NCBI GenBank assembly: GCA_003164215.1
Contig: PLSR01000010.1
Coordinates: 1 to 38,739, forward strand
Direction: 5' to 3'
From: Candidatus Kaiserbacteria bacterium
Lineage (GTDB): Bacteria; Patescibacteriota; Minisyncoccia; Phycocordibacterales; UBA2100
DNA length: 38,739 nucleotides
Every line of letters starts with the position of its first letter. The first letter of the stretch is position 1. Below the pieces are notes generated by a model, which searched no databases, was not told where the DNA came from, and was given only the letters and a program-made list of their open reading frames with translations. Both the position numbers and the translations under genes were made by a program. Positions 1 to 8,610 of this stretch are shown here, piece by piece.

Positions 1-3000
1 TTCCTCTTGCTCAACCAGGGCACTGCCTTCAGTACGACGTCAGCAAGTAACTTCCTCTCCTTGAACCAAGGTCTCGCGTTCAGTACAACATCGGTCAACG
101 CCTGGTCCGCACTTCAGAATTACTTCTCCACCACCTCCGCCAACGCCTTCCTCACCAACGCGACCTCGACCAACTTCTTTGCAACGACCGCGTCATCAAC
201 GAATCTCTTTTCGCAGGTCGCCAGCCTCGGTACGCTCACCACAGGCAACCTCGCCACCTTCAATAGCGGATTCCTCTCGCTCTCCTCCTCGACGGTGGTC
301 GGCACCTTCACCAACACCGGTCTTGCCATCCACGGCGGCGGCTTCATCTCGAACTCCTCCTCAACGATCGTCGGCGCCGAGACGGTCACCGGGCTCACAA
401 CATTCACCGGCGGCTACATCGACAACGCTTCTTCTACACACACCGCGCTCACGAACTTCACCAACGCATCATCCTCGCTTCTCACCGCGACCACCGGTTT
501 CTTCACCACCTCGACCTCCACGACCGCCAATGCCAACACCGCGAACTTCGGCGTCCTGAACGCCGGCACGCTCTCCTTGACCGGCCTCGGAACGTTCGCC
601 GCCGGATTCGTCTCGAACTCGTCTTCTACAGTAGTGGGAAACTTCACATCAACCGGCAACCTCGCCATCGGTGGCACCGGCACGTCGACCTATGTCGGCA
701 ATGTCACCGTCGGTGCCGCGAACTCCAACTTCTATCCGAACTCAGAACTCGTGATGACATCGAACGTGAATGCCTACGACCAGATGGTGTTGCAGAATCT
801 CAACAGTGGCGGTGGCGCATCTGCCGACCTCATTGTTGGAGCAGATAAGATGAACGATGCCTCCTACTACGGTGACTTCGGTTACAACAGCTCCGGCAAC
901 ACCGGACCCTTCGCGGCGAACGACACCTACCTCTATTCAAGCGACAGCGGACTCGATCTCGGCACTGCGTCTTCCACCATCGGCTCCGTCAATTTCTTCA
1001 CCGGCGGATTGCTCGCGGCGAACCAACGCGCGACGATCCTCAACAATGGCAACTTTGGCATTGGTGGTACGACGACCCCGGGATCGCTGCTTTCTCTTGG
1101 TGGCACATCGGGCAACGGCATCAACTTCTCTCTGGCTGCCACAAGCACCTTCTCAACGGGTGGCGGCATCAACATCACCTCCGGCTGCTTCTCGGTGAAC
1201 GGTACCTGTGTCGGCGGCGGCGGAACCGGGACCAACTACTTCACCAACTCCGGAAACTTCACCTCCCTGATCACCGGCACGAACCTCGGTATCGGTACCT
1301 CATCGCCATTCGCGCGCTTCTCTGTCGCCGGTGCGTCTCTTGGCACCGCTTCGCTCTTCACCATCTCGAGCTCGACCGCAACAGCGACGACGACCGTCTT
1401 CAATATCGACCAAAACGGCAACACCACGATCGGTGGCAACGGCTCCGTCCTCACGATCAATGGTGCGACAACGACCGCGGCCAACGGTTTCAACATCCTC
1501 ACTGGCTGCTTCAGTGTGAACGGCACGTGTCTCGTACCTGGCGCCGGATCGAATTACTGGACGTCGGCCAACGGTGACATTTACAACAACACCGGCACGA
1601 ATGTCGGCATCGGCACCGCATCGACCACGCCGTGGGGATTGCTTTCGGTCATCGCACCGGCAAACGCCATCAATCCTGAATTCATCGTCGGCTCGACGAC
1701 CGCGACGAGCTTCTTCGTCGGCAACACCGGCAACATCGGCGTCGGCACCTCATCGCCCTTCGCCACCTTGAGCGTCCAGCCTTCGACCGACGGCAACGCC
1801 TTCGCCATCGATAACGCGTCGGCCGGAACGGTGTTCCAGGTATCGACGGTCAACACTTCCAACAACATCTTCGAAGTTGCATCCTCGACGGGCTCTGCAT
1901 TCTTCGACATCACCTCTGCCGGCAATATCGGTATCGGCTCGACCACTCCGTGGGGCAACCTCTCGATCTCAAGCGTCAATTCCTCCGCGCCCGAATTCGT
2001 CGTCGGCTCATCGACCGCAACGAGCTTGTTCGTCGGCAATACCGGCTTCGTCGGTATCGGGACCACGACGCCCATCCACTCACTCGATATATACAATGCG
2101 AACGCTCCCACTGGTGGCGTCATCTCGCAGATGTTCGACAATGGCAATAACAATACAGCACTCCAGCTTGGGAATACATCGGCGTTGTGGCAATTCTCCG
2201 TACGAAATAGCACCGATGCTAATCCCGGAGGATTCAACTTTTACTCCTCTACTAACGGCGGTTCTTCATGGGTTAATGGACTCACATTGACAACGACCGG
2301 CTACGTCGGCATCGGCACGACCACACCATGGGGCATGTTCTCGATCGCGCCGGGCACATCGGCATCCACGTCGCCGCAGTTCGTCTCGTGGGTCACCGGC
2401 AGCTCCTCCCCGTCGTTCATCATCAGTAGTGCGAACAATAATGGATTCGTCGGTATAGGCACGTCGACACCGACGGCGCTCTTCGCTGTCCAAGGTACGA
2501 CCGGGCAGATCTTCGATGTCGCCAATTCCTCCGGCGGCTCGCTTCTCCACGTCAACTCGAGCGGCAACATCGGCTTTGGCACAACAACGGCGAACGCGAA
2601 CTTCGTCCTCAACGGCACGATCGTGAGCGCGGGCGGTAGCATCTTCCAGATCTCATCCTCGACCAACCAATCGATCCTCCTCGTCACCAACAACGGCCTC
2701 GTCGGCATCGGCACCTCGACTCCTAACCAAAAGCTCACGGTCAACGGCAACATCAACGTCTCCGCCGGCAGCTGCTTCATGGTCAACGGCGTCTGCATCG
2801 GTTATGTCACCAAGTTGATGGGCATTTATTCGAACTCCACAGCGGTCAACAGTGCGACCGTTACCTTCGGAGTCGGCGCGACTCCAAGCGGCGCGTTCAC
2901 CGCTAACCTCGTCCTTCCGGCAACGACGACGGAGATGGTCACCGAAGTGTGGGGCTCCGGCGGCGGCGGCGGTGCCGGATCGATCGCCGCGGGCGGTGGT

Positions 3001-4698
3001 GGTGGTGGTGGCGGCGGCGGCTATTCGCGCAATCTCTACACAAGCTTAATAACCAAGTACTACTACAACATTGGCGCAGGTCCGGCGAGCGGTACCGCCG
3101 GTAACTTAAGTAGCTTCGGTACGGGCCTCGCATCTACGACGGCCAACGGCGGATCTGCCGGTGGAGCCGCGAACACCGGCGGTGCGGTCGGCGGTGCGGG
3201 CGGCACCGCATCCGGTGGCATCCTCAACGTTACCGGTGGTTCTGGTGCGAGCTCCGCGTCTTCAACAGCGGCATCGAGCGGCGCGGGTGGTTCAGCGGCC
3301 GGTGGCGGCGGTGGCGGCGGGATCGGTGTTGCCACGGGAACCGGTAACGCAGGCACCGCGTTCGGCGGCGGCGGTTCCGGTGGCGGACACGGCAGTGCGA
3401 GCACTGCCGGTGCAGGCGGTGCAGGCGGCATCGTCATCACGGTTTATGCGACTTCATCACCGACCACGCTCGGCAATGACTACGCCGAAATGTACCCGGT
3501 CTCGAACCCCGGGGTCAACTCCGGTGACATCGTCGCTGTCGATGACACGATGCCGATCTCGATGACCTTCGCACAGGCAGGCAGTGGTCTACCGCTCGCG
3601 GGCATCGTTTCGACCCAGCCGGGTCAACTCTTGGGCGATCAAGGTGCCAACGGTGAACGCCCCATCGCGCTCTCGGGCCGCGTTCCGGTGTACGTTAGCC
3701 TCGAAGGTGGCCCGATCAATGTCGGCGATCGCATCGCGCCGTCGTCCGTGCCGGGCGTCGGCATGAAGGCGGGGCCGTTCGATGATTCGGTCGGCATTGC
3801 GCTCGAATCCTATGATGGCACTGCCAGTTCATCGGAGATCGAAGTCTTCATTGACCTCCAAAAGGGAATTGATATCAACTCCGTCGGCATAGGACTCCTC
3901 GGCAACAACATGACCTCGCTCTTCGCGTCGAGTACGGCAGCGAGTAGTTCCAGTCCGATAGACTTCATCGGCGGTGTGATGGATTCGATCGGCGCGCGCA
4001 TCGCGGCCTTGACCACGTCGACGGTTTCGACAAGCTCACCGCAAGCCACTTCGACGCCGTCCGATGTCTTCGCGAATGACTTCTTCCAGTCGATCCTCTC
4101 GCAGATCACGCAGTGGTTCGCGAGCGCGGGCAACGGCATCGGCGACTTCTTCGCGAACCGCGTCAACACTAAGGAGCTCTGCGTGAGCGACGACACCGGC
4201 AGCTCGACCTGTATCACCAAGGCTCAGCTCGACGCACTGCTCGCAGGCAATGCGTCAGGCAGCACGAGTAGCGAATCATCCAGTTCCGGCAGTTCGGGCG
4301 GCGGCTCAGGCGGAAGCGGCAGCAGCAGCGGGGGATCGTCGGACTCGACTTCGTCTCCGCCGGTGATCTCAGTCAGCGGCAATGATCCTGCAACGGTCGA
4401 CATTGGTGCTTCGTACACGGATCTCGGTGCGACCATTACCGGTCCGACCGCAGACTTGAATCTTGGTATTACCGCATCAGTCGACGGGGGAGCGACGACC
4501 ACGCTTGATCAGATCCAGATCGACACAACTGTCGCAGGCACGCATACAATCGTCTATACTGCGACCGACCAGAATGGTCTCACCGGAACCGCGTCGCGAA
4601 CGGTCACGGTCGTTGATCCGAATGCGGGAAGCGATGCGTCGTCGACCAGTAGCGCCTCTGATGCAAGCTCAACGGACGCCACCTCAACCACACCATGA
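1..4698 (+). CDS. Giant repetitive surface protein, 5' end outside the window
   Basis: The frame is open to the window edge, so the N-terminus and any signal peptide lie upstream; about 1,565 residues are visible. From codon 7 as residue 1: a Ser/Thr/Asn/Gly-rich part with repeated FSTTSAN and SSST motifs; about ten beta-type repeats with the core GIGTxxP (residues ~350-910), often followed by TPWG or SPFA; three Cys-pair motifs of the form GCFSVNGTC; a Gly-rich block (~980-1145) ending GGIVITVY; a segment starting LGNDYAEMYPV (~1157) that resembles the conserved stretch after S74-type repeats; and a C-terminal Ig-like domain (~1450-1540) resembling DUF5011. No C-terminal membrane anchor or LPxTG signal is visible. 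The repeats resemble those of tail-fibre and adhesin proteins. I infer a cell-surface fibre or adhesin; the partner is unknown. The last codons overlap the ORF-level ATG of the next reading frame. Confidence 0.75.
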   Translation, partial: FLLLNQGTAFSTTSASNFLSLNQGLAFSTTSVNAWSALQNYFSTTSANAFLTNATSTNFFATTASSTNLFSQVASLGTLTTGNLATFNSGFLSLSSSTVVGTFTNTGLAIHGGGFISNSSSTIVGAETVTGLTTFTGGYIDNASSTHTALTNFTNASSSLLTATTGFFTTSTSTTANANTANFGVLNAGTLSLTGLGTFAAGFVSNSSSTVVGNFTSTGNLAIGGTGTSTYVGNVTVGAANSNFYPNSELVMTSNVNAYDQMVLQNLNSGGGASADLIVGADKMNDASYYGDFGYNSSGNTGPFAANDTYLYSSDSGLDLGTASSTIGSVNFFTGGLLAANQRATILNNGNFGIGGTTTPGSLLSLGGTSGNGINFSLAATSTFSTGGGINITSGCFSVNGTCVGGGGTGTNYFTNSGNFTSLITGTNLGIGTSSPFARFSVAGASLGTASLFTISSSTATATTTVFNIDQNGNTTIGGNGSVLTINGATTTAANGFNILTGCFSVNGTCLVPGAGSNYWTSANGDIYNNTGTNVGIGTASTTPWGLLSVIAPANAINPEFIVGSTTATSFFVGNTGNIGVGTSSPFATLSVQPSTDGNAFAIDNASAGTVFQVSTVNTSNNIFEVASSTGSAFFDITSAGNIGIGSTTPWGNLSISSVNSSAPEFVVGSSTATSLFVGNTGFVGIGTTTPIHSLDIYNANAPTGGVISQMFDNGNNNTALQLGNTSALWQFSVRNSTDANPGGFNFYSSTNGGSSWVNGLTLTTTGYVGIGTTTPWGMFSIAPGTSASTSPQFVSWVTGSSSPSFIISSANNNGFVGIGTSTPTALFAVQGTTGQIFDVANSSGGSLLHVNSSGNIGFGTTTANANFVLNGTIVSAGGSIFQISSSTNQSILLVTNNGLVGIGTSTPNQKLTVNGNINVSAGSCFMVNGVCIGYVTKLMGIYSNSTAVNSATVTFGVGATPSGAFTANLVLPATTTEMVTEVWGSGGGGGAGSIAAGGGGGGGGGGYSRNLYTSLITKYYYNIGAGPASGTAGNLSSFGTGLASTTANGGSAGGAANTGGAVGGAGGTASGGILNVTGGSGASSASSTAASSGAGGSAAGGGGGGGIGVATGTGNAGTAFGGGGSGGGHGSASTAGAGGAGGIVITVYATSSPTTLGNDYAEMYPVSNPGVNSGDIVAVDDTMPISMTFAQAGSGLPLAGIVSTQPGQLLGDQGANGERPIALSGRVPVYVSLEGGPINVGDRIAPSSVPGVGMKAGPFDDSVGIALESYDGTASSSEIEVFIDLQKGIDINSVGIGLLGNNMTSLFASSTAASSSSPIDFIGGVMDSIGARIAALTTSTVSTSSPQATSTPSDVFANDFFQSILSQITQWFASAGNGIGDFFANRVNTKELCVSDDTGSSTCITKAQLDALLAGNASGSTSSESSSSGSSGGGSGGSGSSSGGSSDSTSSPPVISVSGNDPATVDIGASYTDLGATITGPTADLNLGITASVDGGATTTLDQIQIDTTVAGTHTIVYTATDQNGLTGTASRTVTVVDPNAGSDASSTSSASDASSTDATSTTP

Positions 4699-4720
4699 GT
4701 ATTAAAAAGTTTTTTAATCC

Positions 4721-4729
4721 TGATACAAT
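4721..4729 (+). promoter_or_regulatory. Extended -10 box for the serine hydrolase gene
   Basis: TGATACAAT gives a TGn-extended -10 (TACAAT at 4724-4729) lying 7 nt before the ATG at 4737. Transcription would begin at or next to the A of the ATG, so the mRNA would be leaderless. This argues for 4737 rather than the upstream in-frame ATG at 4695, which overlaps the previous stop. Confidence 0.6.
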
Positions 4730-4736
4730 CGTCGCT

Positions 4737-5717
4737 ATGAAGCCCTTCGTATATCGATTCTGGATACCGATCGTAACGGCGATCGTGGCGCTTGCGATCG
4801 GTATCTTGATCGGCGTCCTGATCCCCGTGCAAGCACCGTTCGATGTCACGCCAAATCAGTACGAGATTAACTCTGCGTACCACTTCATTAACCCGCTCTT
4901 ATCCTGCGGCGATGATAATTTCTCGCGCATACCGAACGGCCAAATCGCAGATCTCCAAAGTAGGGTCAGCGACTACATCTCTTCGCAACAGAGCGCGGGC
5001 ATACTCGATACTGCATCAGTCTATTTTCGCGAGCTCAACGGCGGACAATTCTTCTCGATCAATCCGGATATCCTGTTCGTGCCGGCGAGCCTTCTCAAGG
5101 TGCCGCTCGCGATGAGCGTCTATCTGCAAGCCGAACAATCGCCGAATTTGCTAAAGCAAAAAGTATCCTACGCCGCACCGTTCGCACCTGCGCAGGAATA
5201 TTTCACCGCACCGACCCTGGCCGCAAGCTCGACGTATTCGGTCGAACAGCTTATCGATGCGATGATCATCAACTCAGACAACAACGCCGCTTTACTTTTG
5301 ACGCACGTCATCAGCACCGCGAGTCTCGATCAATCGTATTCCGACCTCGGCATCACCGTTCCGCAGAACGCTCAATATTCGATGACGGTCGCGACCTACG
5401 CCGGTTTCTTCCGCGTGCTCTACAACGCAACGTACTTGAACCATGACGACTCGGAACACCTGCTCGGGCTTCTGTCGCAGTCGACGTTCCATCAAGGCCT
5501 TGTGGCCGGCGTGCCCGCAGGGGTCGTCGTTGCGCATAAATTCGGTGAACGCGGCTACAATAATCCGGCGATACCCGATCAGCTCCATGACTGCGGAATC
5601 GTGTACGCCAAGAAGCCGTACGTCATATGCATCATGACCCAGGGCACGGGCTACGACGCGATGGCTGGCATCATCGCCACCATTTCCAAAATGGCCTACG
5701 CCTACGGCGGCCCCTGA
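4737..5717 (+). CDS. Membrane-anchored serine hydrolase of the class A beta-lactamase/PBP fold
   Basis: 326 residues. An N-terminal membrane segment (~10-30) is followed by an extracytoplasmic domain with the three motifs of this fold: SxxK (S118-LL-K121), SDN (180-182) and KFG (268-270, standing in for KTG). The Glu-x-x-Leu-Asn omega-loop motif that beta-lactamases use for deacylation is not seen between the SDN and KFG motifs. I therefore favour a peptidoglycan DD-peptidase or other serine hydrolase over an antibiotic-destroying lactamase. The start at 4737 is chosen because a -10 box sits 7 nt upstream; the alternative start at 4695 adds 14 residues and overlaps the previous gene by 4 nt. 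Confidence 0.75.
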   Translation: MKPFVYRFWIPIVTAIVALAIGILIGVLIPVQAPFDVTPNQYEINSAYHFINPLLSCGDDNFSRIPNGQIADLQSRVSDYISSQQSAGILDTASVYFRELNGGQFFSINPDILFVPASLLKVPLAMSVYLQAEQSPNLLKQKVSYAAPFAPAQEYFTAPTLAASSTYSVEQLIDAMIINSDNNAALLLTHVISTASLDQSYSDLGITVPQNAQYSMTVATYAGFFRVLYNATYLNHDDSEHLLGLLSQSTFHQGLVAGVPAGVVVAHKFGERGYNNPAIPDQLHDCGIVYAKKPYVICIMTQGTGYDAMAGIIATISKMAYAYGGP

Positions 5718-5724
5718 CCAGATA

Positions 5725-5739
5725 CCATGGGCACCATGG
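5725..5739 (+). repeat. REP-like palindrome, copy 1 (reverse orientation)
   Basis: CCATGG-GCA-CCATGG, followed by CC. It is the reverse complement of the core of the other copies (loop TGC) and stands 55 nt upstream of the RAYT start codon. Confidence 0.8.
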
Positions 5740-5761
5740 CCAGCCTTGATGATATATCGGG

Positions 5762-5790
5762 TATACTTATTACATATGAATATAGAGGGG
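5762..5790 (+). promoter_or_regulatory. RAYT promoter and ribosome binding site
   Basis: TATACT at 5762-5767 is a good -10 box. It is followed by a leader of about 20 nt with the purine run GAGGGG at 5785-5790, ending 4 nt before the ATG at 5795. A purine-rich RBS is unusual in this window, where most core genes have none. Confidence 0.55.
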
Positions 5791-5794
5791 TCAT

Positions 5795-6439
5795 ATGTCT
5801 CGCAGAGACTATAAAGAATTTGCGGCGGGGGAATATCACCATGTTTTTAACCGAGGTAATAACAAATCGGACATTTTTCTCGATGGCGAAGACTACGACT
5901 TTTTCCTTACCCGCTTAGAAGAGGCACTATATCCGGGTCGTGGCCATGGTGCCCATGGCCATCACGCAAGAAGTCGACGCCGCCCGCTACCCGACGACGC
6001 ATTTTCGTTGATCGCATATTGTCTGATGCCGAATCATTTTCACCTGCTCATTCTTCAAAAAAACGACACCTCGATCAGTGTGCTCATGCTGAGACTCATT
6101 ACGGCCTACTCAAAGTATTTCAATAAAAAATATGCGCGGGTCGGATCGTTATTCCAGGATCAGTTCAAATCAACGCACATTGAGGACGATGCACAACTGG
6201 TGTATACATCAGCCTACATCCACTGCAATGCACCGGTTGCGGGACTGGTCAGAAGTCCTGGCGATTATGCATATGATAGTTACCGGGAGTATGTGACGGA
6301 GGGGGATTCGGCGGAAAAACTTTCGCAACCAAGTGAAATATTGGGACATTTTTCAGACGTCAGAAAATATGAAGAGTTCGTCTTTGAGCGCCTCGAGATC
6401 TTGAAACGTGATCAAGTGACATCTGATGAAGATGAGTAG
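5795..6439 (+). CDS. REP-associated tyrosine transposase (RAYT, Y1/IS200-like)
   Basis: 214 residues. Family features: YHHVFNRG near the N-terminus (residues 14-21), AYCLMPNHFHLLI with the HUH pair H81/H83, then a helix with candidate nucleophile tyrosines (Y105, Y108, Y113) and VGSLFQDQFKS. RAYTs are single-strand DNA endonucleases that act on REP palindromes and are domesticated relatives of IS200/IS605 transposases. Odd feature: residues ~47-68 (GRGHGAHGHHARS and a basic stretch) lie between the first helix and the HUH strand and are partly encoded by a REP palindrome (5939-5966), still in frame. The gene is surrounded by five more REP copies. The catalytic motifs look intact, so activity is plausible but not shown. 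Confidence 0.88.
   Translation: MSRRDYKEFAAGEYHHVFNRGNNKSDIFLDGEDYDFFLTRLEEALYPGRGHGAHGHHARSRRRPLPDDAFSLIAYCLMPNHFHLLILQKNDTSISVLMLRLITAYSKYFNKKYARVGSLFQDQFKSTHIEDDAQLVYTSAYIHCNAPVAGLVRSPGDYAYDSYREYVTEGDSAEKLSQPSEILGHFSDVRKYEEFVFERLEILKRDQVTSDEDE
5939..5966 (+). repeat. REP-like palindrome, copy 2, inside the RAYT gene
   Basis: Arms GTGGCCATGG and CCATGGCCA(T)CAC around a TGC loop. It is translated as GHGAHGHH within the RAYT, so the transposase gene carries its own presumed target. Confidence 0.85.
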
Positions 6440-6443
6440 CCTG

Positions 6444-6466
6444 TCCATGGTGCCCACGCCTGGCCA
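6444..6466 (+). repeat. REP-like palindrome, copy 3 (degenerate)
   Basis: Starts TCCATGGTGCCCA like the other copies, but the right arm is disrupted (ACGCC inserted before TGGCCA). It begins 5 nt after the RAYT stop codon. Confidence 0.6.
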
Positions 6467-6490
6467 TATCTTTATAACCATTGTCAATAA

Positions 6491-6515
6491 GGTGGCCATG
6501 GTGCCCATGGCCACC
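6491..6515 (+). repeat. REP-like palindrome, copy 4 (perfect)
   Basis: Perfect 11-bp arms, GGTGGCCATGG and CCATGGCCACC, around TGC. It abuts the RAYT 3' fragment at 6519. Confidence 0.9.
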
Positions 6516-6518
6516 ATC

Positions 6519-6596
6519 AGAAAATATCAAGAGTTCGTCTTTGAACGTCTTGAAATATTGAAGCGCGATCAAGCTTCTGATGATGAGGATGAGTGA
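6519..6596 (+). pseudogene. 3' fragment of a second RAYT copy
   Basis: The reading RKYQEFVFERLEILKRD continues to a TGA stop. It matches the last 25 codons of the RAYT (6362-6439) at about 21 of 25 residues, with the same length and an equivalent stop position. No start codon or upstream domain goes with it. It is either the remains of a second RAYT gene or a duplication of the RAYT tail carried with a REP. Several differences are at the DNA level only (for example GAGCGCCTCGAG against GAACGTCTTGAA), so the copy is not very recent. Confidence 0.8.
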
Positions 6597-6618
6597 TATG
6601 TATATCCACGCTGCCCGG

Positions 6619-6642
6619 GGTGCCATGGTGCCCATGGCCACC
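6619..6642 (+). repeat. REP-like palindrome, copy 5
   Basis: GGTG-CCATGG-TGC-CCATGGCCACC: as copy 4 but with one base missing in the left arm. Confidence 0.8.
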
Positions 6643-6668
6643 GCGACGTTTAGCCTCGACAACGCCGG

Positions 6669-6685
6669 CGCATGGTGCCCATGCG
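6669..6685 (+). repeat. REP-like palindrome, copy 6 (short arms)
   Basis: CGCATGG-TGC-CCATGCG, 7-bp arms. It covers the -35 position of the TATAAT box at 6699. The 305 nt from 6440 to 6744 hold only REP copies 3-6, the RAYT fragment and the promoter region of the next gene. Confidence 0.75.
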
Positions 6686-6698
6686 GATTTCTTTGAGC

Positions 6699-6746
6699 TA
6701 TAATCTAGTGATCTGATGACCCGAATGTCACATCATAATGTCACAT
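6699..6746 (+). promoter_or_regulatory. Promoter region of the NHL-repeat protein gene
   Basis: TATAAT at 6699-6704 has no clear -35; a REP palindrome occupies that position. A second possible -10, CATAAT at 6734-6739, lies 5 nt before the ATG at 6745. The 10-mer AATGTCACAT occurs twice (6724-6733 and 6737-6746) with a 13-nt period, which may be an operator or a chance duplication. Confidence 0.4.
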
Positions 6747-8610
6747 GAAGAACGTAACGAACATGAAAAAATTTCTCGCCCCGCTTTTGTCGCTCCTCAT
6801 ATTCATCGCTGTTGCGTGCTCCTTCCCACTTATGTCCTACGCAAACACCGTCGTCACCTTCGCGACAGTTGGCAGCGAACCAAATTCCATCGCGTTCGAC
6901 TCCTCCGGCAATCTGTATGTAGCGAATGAGGGTTCCGACACCATCTCCAAGGTCACACCAGGCGGCAGTGTGAGCACTTTCAGCGGTTTCTGTTCGCCAT
7001 ATGCTCTCGCCTTCGACTCGTCCGACAATCTGTATGTAGCGAACAGCGACAATAACGAGGGCTGCAACAACATATCAAAAATCATCCCGAGCGGCACTGT
7101 CACCCAGACCTGGGCGACTGTCGGCTACAACGACTCCGATGCTCTCACCGTCGACTCCTCCGGCAATCTGTATGTAGCGAATGAGGGTTCCGGCACCATC
7201 TCCATGGTCACACCAGGCGGCAGTGTCACCTTAAACTTTGCGACCGTGGGTAGCCATCCCCTCGCCCTCGCCTGGGACTCTTCCGGCAACCTCTACGTGG
7301 CGAACAACGGTAGTGGCACCATCTCCAAGATCATCTTCCCGCCCGCCACTGCTCCAGGAACTCCAACGTTCAGCAGCGTCACCGGCACCTCGCTCACGGT
7401 GAATTGGACGGCAGCTACCAACGCAACAAGCTCGAATATATATCGCTGTAGTGGCGCGAGCTGTACGCCGTCCCTCTATCAGAGCGGCGTCACCAACACG
7501 TACTACAACGAAACCGGCCTCACACCGGGGACGTCGTATACCTACTACATAGTCGGCGCGAATTCCTCAGGTACCGGGCCGGCCTCGGGCTCCAATTCAG
7601 TGACTACGCTCATATCCTCTTGCACCCTTTCCGCCTCGCCTCCTTCTATCCTGAATGGACAATCCTCCGTCCTCACGTGGACGAGCGCGAACGCGACTAC
7701 GGTCAGCATCGATCACGGGATCGGGACCGTCACACCGACTGCGGGCGGCACCACGTCGGTGTCACCTACGGTCTCGACGACCTACACCATGACAGCGACC
7801 GGCACTGGAACCGGGACATGTACCGCCACGGTGATCGTAGGAGCGCCAGTAGAACGCCCCAGCATGAATGAATTCTGGTCCGGATTCTTTCGCCTCCGAG
7901 GCGGACAACTTGTCATTGGTCCGCCTTCAATCAAATCGCAGATCTTTTTGACGACCACCGGCACAGGCAGCTGGACCGTTCCTTCTAATTGGAACAACGC
8001 GAGTAACACAATTCAGGTAATTGGCGGCGGTCAGGCGGGCTCAGACGCAGGGGGTGGAGCCGAGCCCGGTGGTGCAGGCGGAGACTATGCGGCGGTCACT
8101 AATTTAAAGTTTGCAAATCCAGGCACTACGGTCGCGACATACCAAGTTGGAGCTGGCGGAGCCTCCGGGAACGCTAATGGCGGAAGTACCTGGTTTAACG
8201 GCTCGACACTCGCTGGGTCAAGTGTTGGAGCTACAGGCGGAAATGCTCCAGGCACCGATGTCGGGAGCGTTACCGCTCTCGGTGGTGCCGGTGGGGGTGG
8301 CCCGGCAAATGGCGGTGGCGGTGGTGCAGGAGGACCACATGGCGCCGGCGCGGCAGGTGCTGCATCCGGTTCCGGTGGTGCCGGTGGGCAGGGCGATAAT
8401 GGGTTCGGCGGAACGGGCGGATCCACTTCTGGGGCCGCCGGGAATCCTGGTACCGAATGGGATAGTTCGCATGGAAGCGGCGGCGGCGGACATAGTGGTT
8501 CTGCCGGTGGGTCCGGCGGTCAGTATGGCGCTGGGGGGGGTGGTGCTAGTTCCACGACCGGCGGCGCTGGCATGCAAGGTATTATCGTCATTACGTATAC
8601 GCATTACTGA
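6745..8610 (+). CDS. Secreted NHL-repeat / FN3 / glycine-rich surface protein
   Basis: 621 residues. A signal peptide (hydrophobic ~10-30, possible cleavage after SYA) is followed by at least four NHL-type beta-propeller repeats with the motif FDSSGNLYVAN, a fibronectin-III-like domain (~205-290, SLTVNWTAA ... GLTPGTSYTYYIVG), an Ig-like domain (~295-370, LTWTSANATTVSI), and a Gly-rich module (~400-621) ending GIIVITYTHY. The Gly-rich module with its IVIT-type end also occurs in the giant protein at 1-4698. A partial propeller of about four blades would be unusual alone, so it may pair with another chain. An alternative start is the ATG at 6763 (MKKFLAPLL), which leaves a more typical signal peptide. 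Likely role: surface-exposed binding or adhesion (inferred). Confidence 0.75.
   Translation: MKNVTNMKKFLAPLLSLLIFIAVACSFPLMSYANTVVTFATVGSEPNSIAFDSSGNLYVANEGSDTISKVTPGGSVSTFSGFCSPYALAFDSSDNLYVANSDNNEGCNNISKIIPSGTVTQTWATVGYNDSDALTVDSSGNLYVANEGSGTISMVTPGGSVTLNFATVGSHPLALAWDSSGNLYVANNGSGTISKIIFPPATAPGTPTFSSVTGTSLTVNWTAATNATSSNIYRCSGASCTPSLYQSGVTNTYYNETGLTPGTSYTYYIVGANSSGTGPASGSNSVTTLISSCTLSASPPSILNGQSSVLTWTSANATTVSIDHGIGTVTPTAGGTTSVSPTVSTTYTMTATGTGTGTCTATVIVGAPVERPSMNEFWSGFFRLRGGQLVIGPPSIKSQIFLTTTGTGSWTVPSNWNNASNTIQVIGGGQAGSDAGGGAEPGGAGGDYAAVTNLKFANPGTTVATYQVGAGGASGNANGGSTWFNGSTLAGSSVGATGGNAPGTDVGSVTALGGAGGGGPANGGGGGAGGPHGAGAAGAASGSGGAGGQGDNGFGGTGGSTSGAAGNPGTEWDSSHGSGGGGHSGSAGGSGGQYGAGGGGASSTTGGAGMQGIIVITYTHY
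6898..6971 (+). repeat. NHL-unit DNA repeat, copy 1
   Basis: 74 nt that match 7153-7226 with 2 differences, far closer than the other NHL units of this gene, which points to recent duplication or gene conversion. Confidence 0.85.
7153..7226 (+). repeat. NHL-unit DNA repeat, copy 2
   Basis: Partner of 6898-6971, offset 255 nt (85 codons), in frame. One difference changes Asp to Gly, the other Lys to Met. Confidence 0.85.

Follow-up and report, generated by a model that had tools for sequence, protein, structure and literature searches.

The RAYT Locus and Its Hairpins

The window, by which is meant the whole stretch of 38,739 nt of Candidatus Kaiserbacteria DNA that was analyzed, contains an intact gene for a RAYT, a domesticated transposase, and this gene is accompanied on both sides, and internally, by copies of a single short palindrome (Table 1). 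Matches to CCATGGTGCCCATGG with no more than two mismatches start at 5725(-), 5944(+), 6445(+), 6496(+), 6623(+), and 6670(+); all six fall within 961 nt, where shuffles of the window give an expectation of 0.05. Four of the matches are exact, that at 6670 differs in its outer stem, and that at 6445 is decayed, such that the preliminary description of six same-core palindromes, five outside the gene and one inside it, stands for number and placement and is narrowed to four copies as regards exactness. The upstream copy at 5725 is in inverted orientation with respect to the gene and the in-gene and downstream copies are in the forward orientation, and the gene is flanked in this way by copies of one palindrome, a property by which RAYTs are recognized. 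A hairpin of this system has the sequence GGTGGCCATGGTGCCCATGGCCACC, and the copy at 6491-6515 is predicted to fold as single-stranded DNA with an energy of -12.8 kcal/mol (z -4.3). Differences in arm length had earlier been read as a processing series, which is unsupported because perfect arms range from 4 to 12 bp across the genome without order; the variation resembles outer-stem drift.

The diverged duplicate of the RAYT 3' end is most simply explained as the remnant of a second RAYT, the older copy having been deleted up to a REP. The locus is bordered by genes for large secreted-looking proteins, namely a repetitive protein and, at 4695-5717, a protein with a beta-lactamase fold on one side (from 7-4698 onward) and an NHL-repeat/fn3 protein on the other (6745-8610).

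Table 1. Features of the RAYT locus, in window coordinates
Feature	Position	Strand	Description
REP copy 1	5725..5739	-	Exact match to the 15-mer, opposite in orientation to the gene; perfect arms of 6 bp; 55 nt before the start codon
RAYT (TnpA-REP-like Y1 HUH transposase)	5795..6439	+	214 aa, intact reading frame
REP copy 2	5941..5961	+	Exact; arms of 9 bp; within the RAYT gene and in frame with it
REP copy 3	6445..6459	+	Decayed: 2 mismatches, perfect palindrome lost; 5 nt past the stop codon
REP copy 4	6491..6515	+	Exact, 11-bp perfect arms (longest), GTGG foot, CCAC end
Diverged duplicate of RAYT 3' end	6517..6594	+	81% to 6360-6437; tblastn hit; begins beside REP copy 4, between two REPs
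REP copy 5	6622..6638	+	Exact core, 7-bp arms
REP copy 6	6669..6685	+	Outer stem of class B (CGCATGG-TGC-CCATGCG); arms of 7 bp

The Transposase

The earlier identification of the gene as a RAYT is borne out by profile searches, in which its product matches the Pfam family Y1_Tnp (PF01797) at 5e-10, over the cut-off, and the NCBIfam family NF047646 ("REP-associated tyrosine transposase") at 1e-14, although the latter value lies below that model's cut-off. The HUH motif is formed by N80-H81-F82-H83 (at about 6032-6043) and the predicted catalytic tyrosine is Y141 (at about 6215-6217), HUH and tyrosine being nearly invariant across 112 relatives. The tyrosine motif reads Y141-IHCN, with NA at the place where 102 of the 112 relatives carry NP, and the gene thus combines an HUH motif with a tyrosine motif of the class-2 Y---NP type, as RAYTs do. 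The only solved structure matched by a profile of 48 relatives is 4er8 (E. coli TnpA-REP); the same structure, with its REP hairpin, is the best fold match of the AlphaFold2 model (mean pLDDT 91.7), followed by IS200/IS605 transposases.

Low copy number and low identity among the RAYT genes of one genome are likewise typical of RAYTs and are seen here. The window's genome contains four RAYT loci, and the other three are just 32-36% identical to the window RAYT, hence there are no recent gene copies. Two of these other RAYT genes (L021, G000:C21; L023, G000:C20) are enclosed by direct repeats, which measure 134 nt (86%) and 101 nt (89%), an arrangement that the window RAYT does not share.

Dispersal of the Hairpin in the Genome and Genus

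The 13-nt core CATGGTGCCCATG occurs exactly 15 times in the 1.0-Mb genome (reversed control, 0), eight of the copies ending in CC..GG (class A) and seven in GC..GC (class B; GCATGG-TGC-CCATGC), and the 15-mer has 20 genome matches when up to two mismatches are allowed (control, 1). These counts remove the caveat attached to the preliminary description, that the core might be found nowhere else in the genome. The copies are mostly intergenic and most palindromes stand alone, away from any RAYT gene; a dispersed palindrome situated mainly between genes is what is expected of a RAYT system, though the copy number is low. A GT[AG]G foot is present, as GTGG, in four of nine class-A copies and in none of class B. 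Two-mismatch matches in rplC and ppdK were not accepted as REPs, since by eye they look like ordinary conserved coding sequence.

An exact, in-frame 15-mer also lies in the gene for the ATP synthase delta subunit (atpH; L005:1301-1678, G000:C10:12494-12868), and was considered as a possible demonstration of an empty site. An alignment with the homologs of 29 further genomes of the genus gives the impression of substitution and not of insertion, and the atpH gene of one of the other species, G034, has a version of the 15-mer with two mismatches at the same codons; the locus therefore proves nothing about insertion, its 15-mer may be a REP or a chance match, and the comparison yielded no clean empty site.

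Among 35 other species of the genus, the exact core is absent in 32, occurs once in each of two, and occurs 17 times in G034, where all 17 copies are of class B. No class-B RAYT was found in the G034 assembly for these hairpins, and the RAYT neighborhoods that were fetched, covering part of ten RAYT matches, carry other palindromes. The suggestion that copies might occur as REPIN pairs finds no echo in the window's genome, among whose hairpin copies no REPIN-like inverted pairs were found, and is met in three relatives (G034, G033, and G044), in which inverted REP pairs do occur.

Some other arrangements of class-B copies were noted. In the window's genome, two inverted class-B REPs lie 784 nt apart and enclose small ORFs (L220:1566-2362, G000:C25); a hidden RAYT was considered between them, and small ORFs alone were found, one of them RelE/YafQ-like by eye. 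In G034, class-B REPs in back-to-back arrangement, together with another hairpin, CGTAAGGTTTCGCCTTACG, lie directly upstream of members of a repeated surface-type protein family (L060, L065, L069). These were considered as the end of an insertion sequence joined to the core, and were instead recognized as promoter regions of the repeated family with a second hairpin; CGTAAGGTTTCGCCTTACG is related to a palindrome near a RAYT of the same genome (G034:C29, L214).

Pairing of Palindrome and Transposase

The three nearest RAYTs are 49, 47, and 45% identical to the window RAYT and come from G033, of the same genus, and from G044 and G058, of other families of the order. Each is flanked by a palindrome of its own, in which the GG-TGC-CC center is shared, the stem is different, and the upstream copy is inverted. 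In searches of these three genomes, the G033 palindrome was found at 7 places and the G044 palindrome at 8, each in its own genome only (reversed controls, 0). The other three RAYTs of the window's genome also have different palindromes, and the association of each RAYT with its own REP family, a further mark of RAYTs, is thus observed. Flanking palindromes that contain GGTGCC are almost limited to the clade of the window RAYT (6/14 vs. 1/79, p = 2.5e-5), a clade taken from a tree in which its support is moderate.

The dispersal of the core, taken together with palindromes that are particular to each genome and share a center, argues that the locus is a REPtron, in which one HUH/Y1 transposase (RAYT) is paired with a family of REP hairpins specific to it, and we consider this very probable. 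The earlier proposal of a RAYT with its cognate REP is upheld in the same way, homologous RAYTs carrying their own variant palindromes and the core being dispersed genome-wide. Counted against the REPtron reading are the lack of a clean empty site, the class-B cores of G034 with no matching RAYT found, the foot in only four of nine class-A copies, and the low copy number. From these comparisons of sequence, we infer that the RAYT probably moves the hairpins. It would recognize the single-stranded hairpin through the GG-TGC-CC center and the stem and, by means of Y141, would cut beside it; the cut strand would be rejoined elsewhere, allowing hairpins of roughly 20-25 nt to spread singly through the genome, and copies landing in the RAYT gene would survive only in tolerant loops.

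Occurrence in Patescibacteria

Relatives of the window RAYT were found in 45 of 60 genomes searched in the window's order (own genome included), and a scan of sequenced genomes provided 80 further RAYT loci, mainly from Patescibacteria (Zambryskibacteria, Doudnabacteria, Yanofskybacteria, Daviesbacteria, Woesebacteria, and others) and some from Cyanobacteria and Chloroflexota. The same palindromic core is present on both sides, within 150 nt, of 52 of 112 distinct RAYT genes, compared with 0 of 288 shifted control windows from the same loci. RAYT/REP pairs are therefore common in Patescibacteria, each gene with its own hairpin, and the initial impression that such a set is unusual in a CPR-like genome has to be given up, both for the order and for Patescibacteria in general, in which palindrome-flanked RAYTs are widespread. 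A literature search of incomplete coverage found no report of RAYT/REP pairs in Patescibacteria.

In-Frame Hairpins in RAYT Genes

Without breaking the reading frame, the copy at 5941-5961 encodes about residues 49-56, before the HUH strand. In the AlphaFold2 model, residues 51-60 (pLDDT 57) are the least certain inner stretch, situated between the helix of residues 31-45 and the strand of residues 70-77. With at most one mismatch allowed and the first 20 and last 60 nt of each gene excluded, 18 of 64 RAYTs carry their own flanking palindrome inside their own gene, as against 16 matches in 3920 when palindromes were compared with RAYT genes other than their own. Mapped on the window protein, the centers of these in-gene palindromes lie at residues 52-69 and 152-154, and the remainder, toward the C-terminus and not counted as inner sites, at 190-214. 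The two inner host loops are situated before the HUH motif and after the helix of the catalytic tyrosine; this grouping into two stretches was recognized post hoc, and its nominal probability needs care. The loop before the HUH motif comprises 4-5 residues in cyanobacterial RAYTs and 16-38 in most of those from Patescibacteria. We infer that the in-gene copies arrived by RAYT-driven movement of the hairpin and that they persist since the two loops tolerate in-frame insertions.

It might instead be supposed that the RAYT gene retains its internal palindrome as a functional element, serving in expression control or as a docking or donor site, that is updated in step with changes in the flanking hairpins. 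Such a role would accommodate the use of the same two loops by many RAYTs with differing stems, the single codon phase common to 10 of the 14 first-site copies, and the length of the host loop, which is long (16-35 residues) in all first-site carriers, no short-loop RAYT having a copy. Most RAYTs nevertheless have no in-gene copy, and first-site carriers are scattered: a tree computed with the loop columns left out, a quick one with many weak forks, needs at least 13 changes to account for them. In the homolog L072, moreover, the in-gene copy lies one codon from that of the window in the opposite orientation and in another codon phase, which argues for separate arrivals, and the host loop is poorly ordered in the model. 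We regard a retained working part as unlikely. Similarly doubtful is the wider proposal that RAYTs in Patescibacteria repeatedly take up their own hairpin in two fixed loops, that the hairpin embedded there has a function (in self-recognition, self-limitation, or as a cis donor for new REPs), and that the long loop before the HUH motif was built by such insertions.

Fossil REPs were also sought in long loops without a recognizable copy, of which 22 of 65 fall in the top decile of hairpin propensity; they are not claimed here, because the short-loop control (8 of 28) is also above expectation. REPs were rejected as the cause of long second loops, since carriers at that site have loops of ordinary length. 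In 28 RAYTs (L085, L130, L134, and others), the second loop (residues 148-160) is lengthened to at least 16 residues, mostly 26, and holds no recognizable REP.

Comparison With Known Systems

REPtrons have been described by Quentin et al. (2018; PMC6006769), who do not mention Patescibacteria; their account includes "double foot" REPs, whose ends are GT[AG]G and C[TC]AC, and a subclass, 2.4, with in-frame REPs inside the RAYT gene, generally between HUH and tyrosine. The window system has in common with subclass 2.4 the NH[IFV]H and Y---NP-type motifs, flanking REPs, and an in-frame in-gene REP, and the double foot is seen in some copies of the window's genome (e.g., GTGG...CCAC at 6491-6515). 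In-frame REPs in RAYT genes are thus already published, and it is their position that differs: the copy at 5941-5961 and those of its relatives among the 18 of 64 are at sites other than the published ones, before HUH or after the tyrosine helix. The variable insertion between β3 (HUH) and αC that characterizes the subclass was not found, the HUH-tyrosine distance being 61 in the window's clade and 60-62 in all 112 RAYTs. Compared with published REPtrons in general, the window differs in the site of the in-gene copy, in its perfect hairpin with a TGC loop, and in its host group. REPs in coding regions have been recorded in a survey of GTAG and CGTC repeats, in which two Xanthomonas species had different REPs at about the same site of recB (PMC3733652).

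Corneloup et al. (2021; PMC8266576) describe in vitro cleavage and co-evolution in two proteobacterial groups of TnpA-REP, namely groups 2 and 3 (subclasses 2.2 and 2.5; E. coli, Stenotrophomonas, Marinomonas). These share with the window system an HUH/Y1 enzyme and a cognate palindrome that change together, and group 3 also has perfect palindromes. Their REPs have a conserved GTAG foot and number hundreds to thousands of copies, whereas the foot is inconsistent in the window's genome, the copies total 15-20, and what is conserved, within a small clade, is the GG-TGC-CC center.

The TnpA proteins of the IS200/IS605 family (ISDra2, IS608) have the same Y1 HUH fold and use imperfect or perfect single-strand hairpins, as the window RAYT probably would. 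The palindromes could accordingly be the subterminal ends of an insertion sequence of this type, in which gene and ends move together, and the position of the gene between palindromes that are inverted upstream and forward downstream, along with the duplicated RAYT 3' end, would fit such an element. The tyrosine motif of the RAYTs is however YIHxN[PA] (YIHCN in the window) and not Y---Q (PMC6006769), no TnpB gene adjoins, the low identity among the RAYTs of the genome leaves no recent or near-identical copy of the gene, and in place of a moving unit of gene plus ends there are mostly solitary, dispersed hairpins, such that an insertion sequence is very improbable. Least credible of all, at next to no probability, is that the palindromes have nothing to do with the RAYT and lie near the gene by chance, as hairpins that act as transcription terminators or as binding sites for proteins, for although several copies do lie near gene ends (e.g., L006, L007), this is already contradicted by genome comparisons, the core being missing from most other species of the genus, the palindrome changing with the RAYT around a constant center, one copy lying within the reading frame, and flanking on both sides being specific to RAYT genes.

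Significance

How REP hairpins spread and why bacteria retain RAYTs are open questions that have been studied mainly in a few proteobacteria. Patescibacteria, a large and little-studied group, offer many natural pairs of RAYT and hairpin in genomes of about 1 Mb and at low copy numbers. As the stem varies between related RAYTs while the center stays constant, the rules of recognition should be readable from such pairs and testable by stem swaps. The in-frame copies in two protein loops may furthermore serve as a natural insertion assay, each recording a hairpin in a gene that still reads through.
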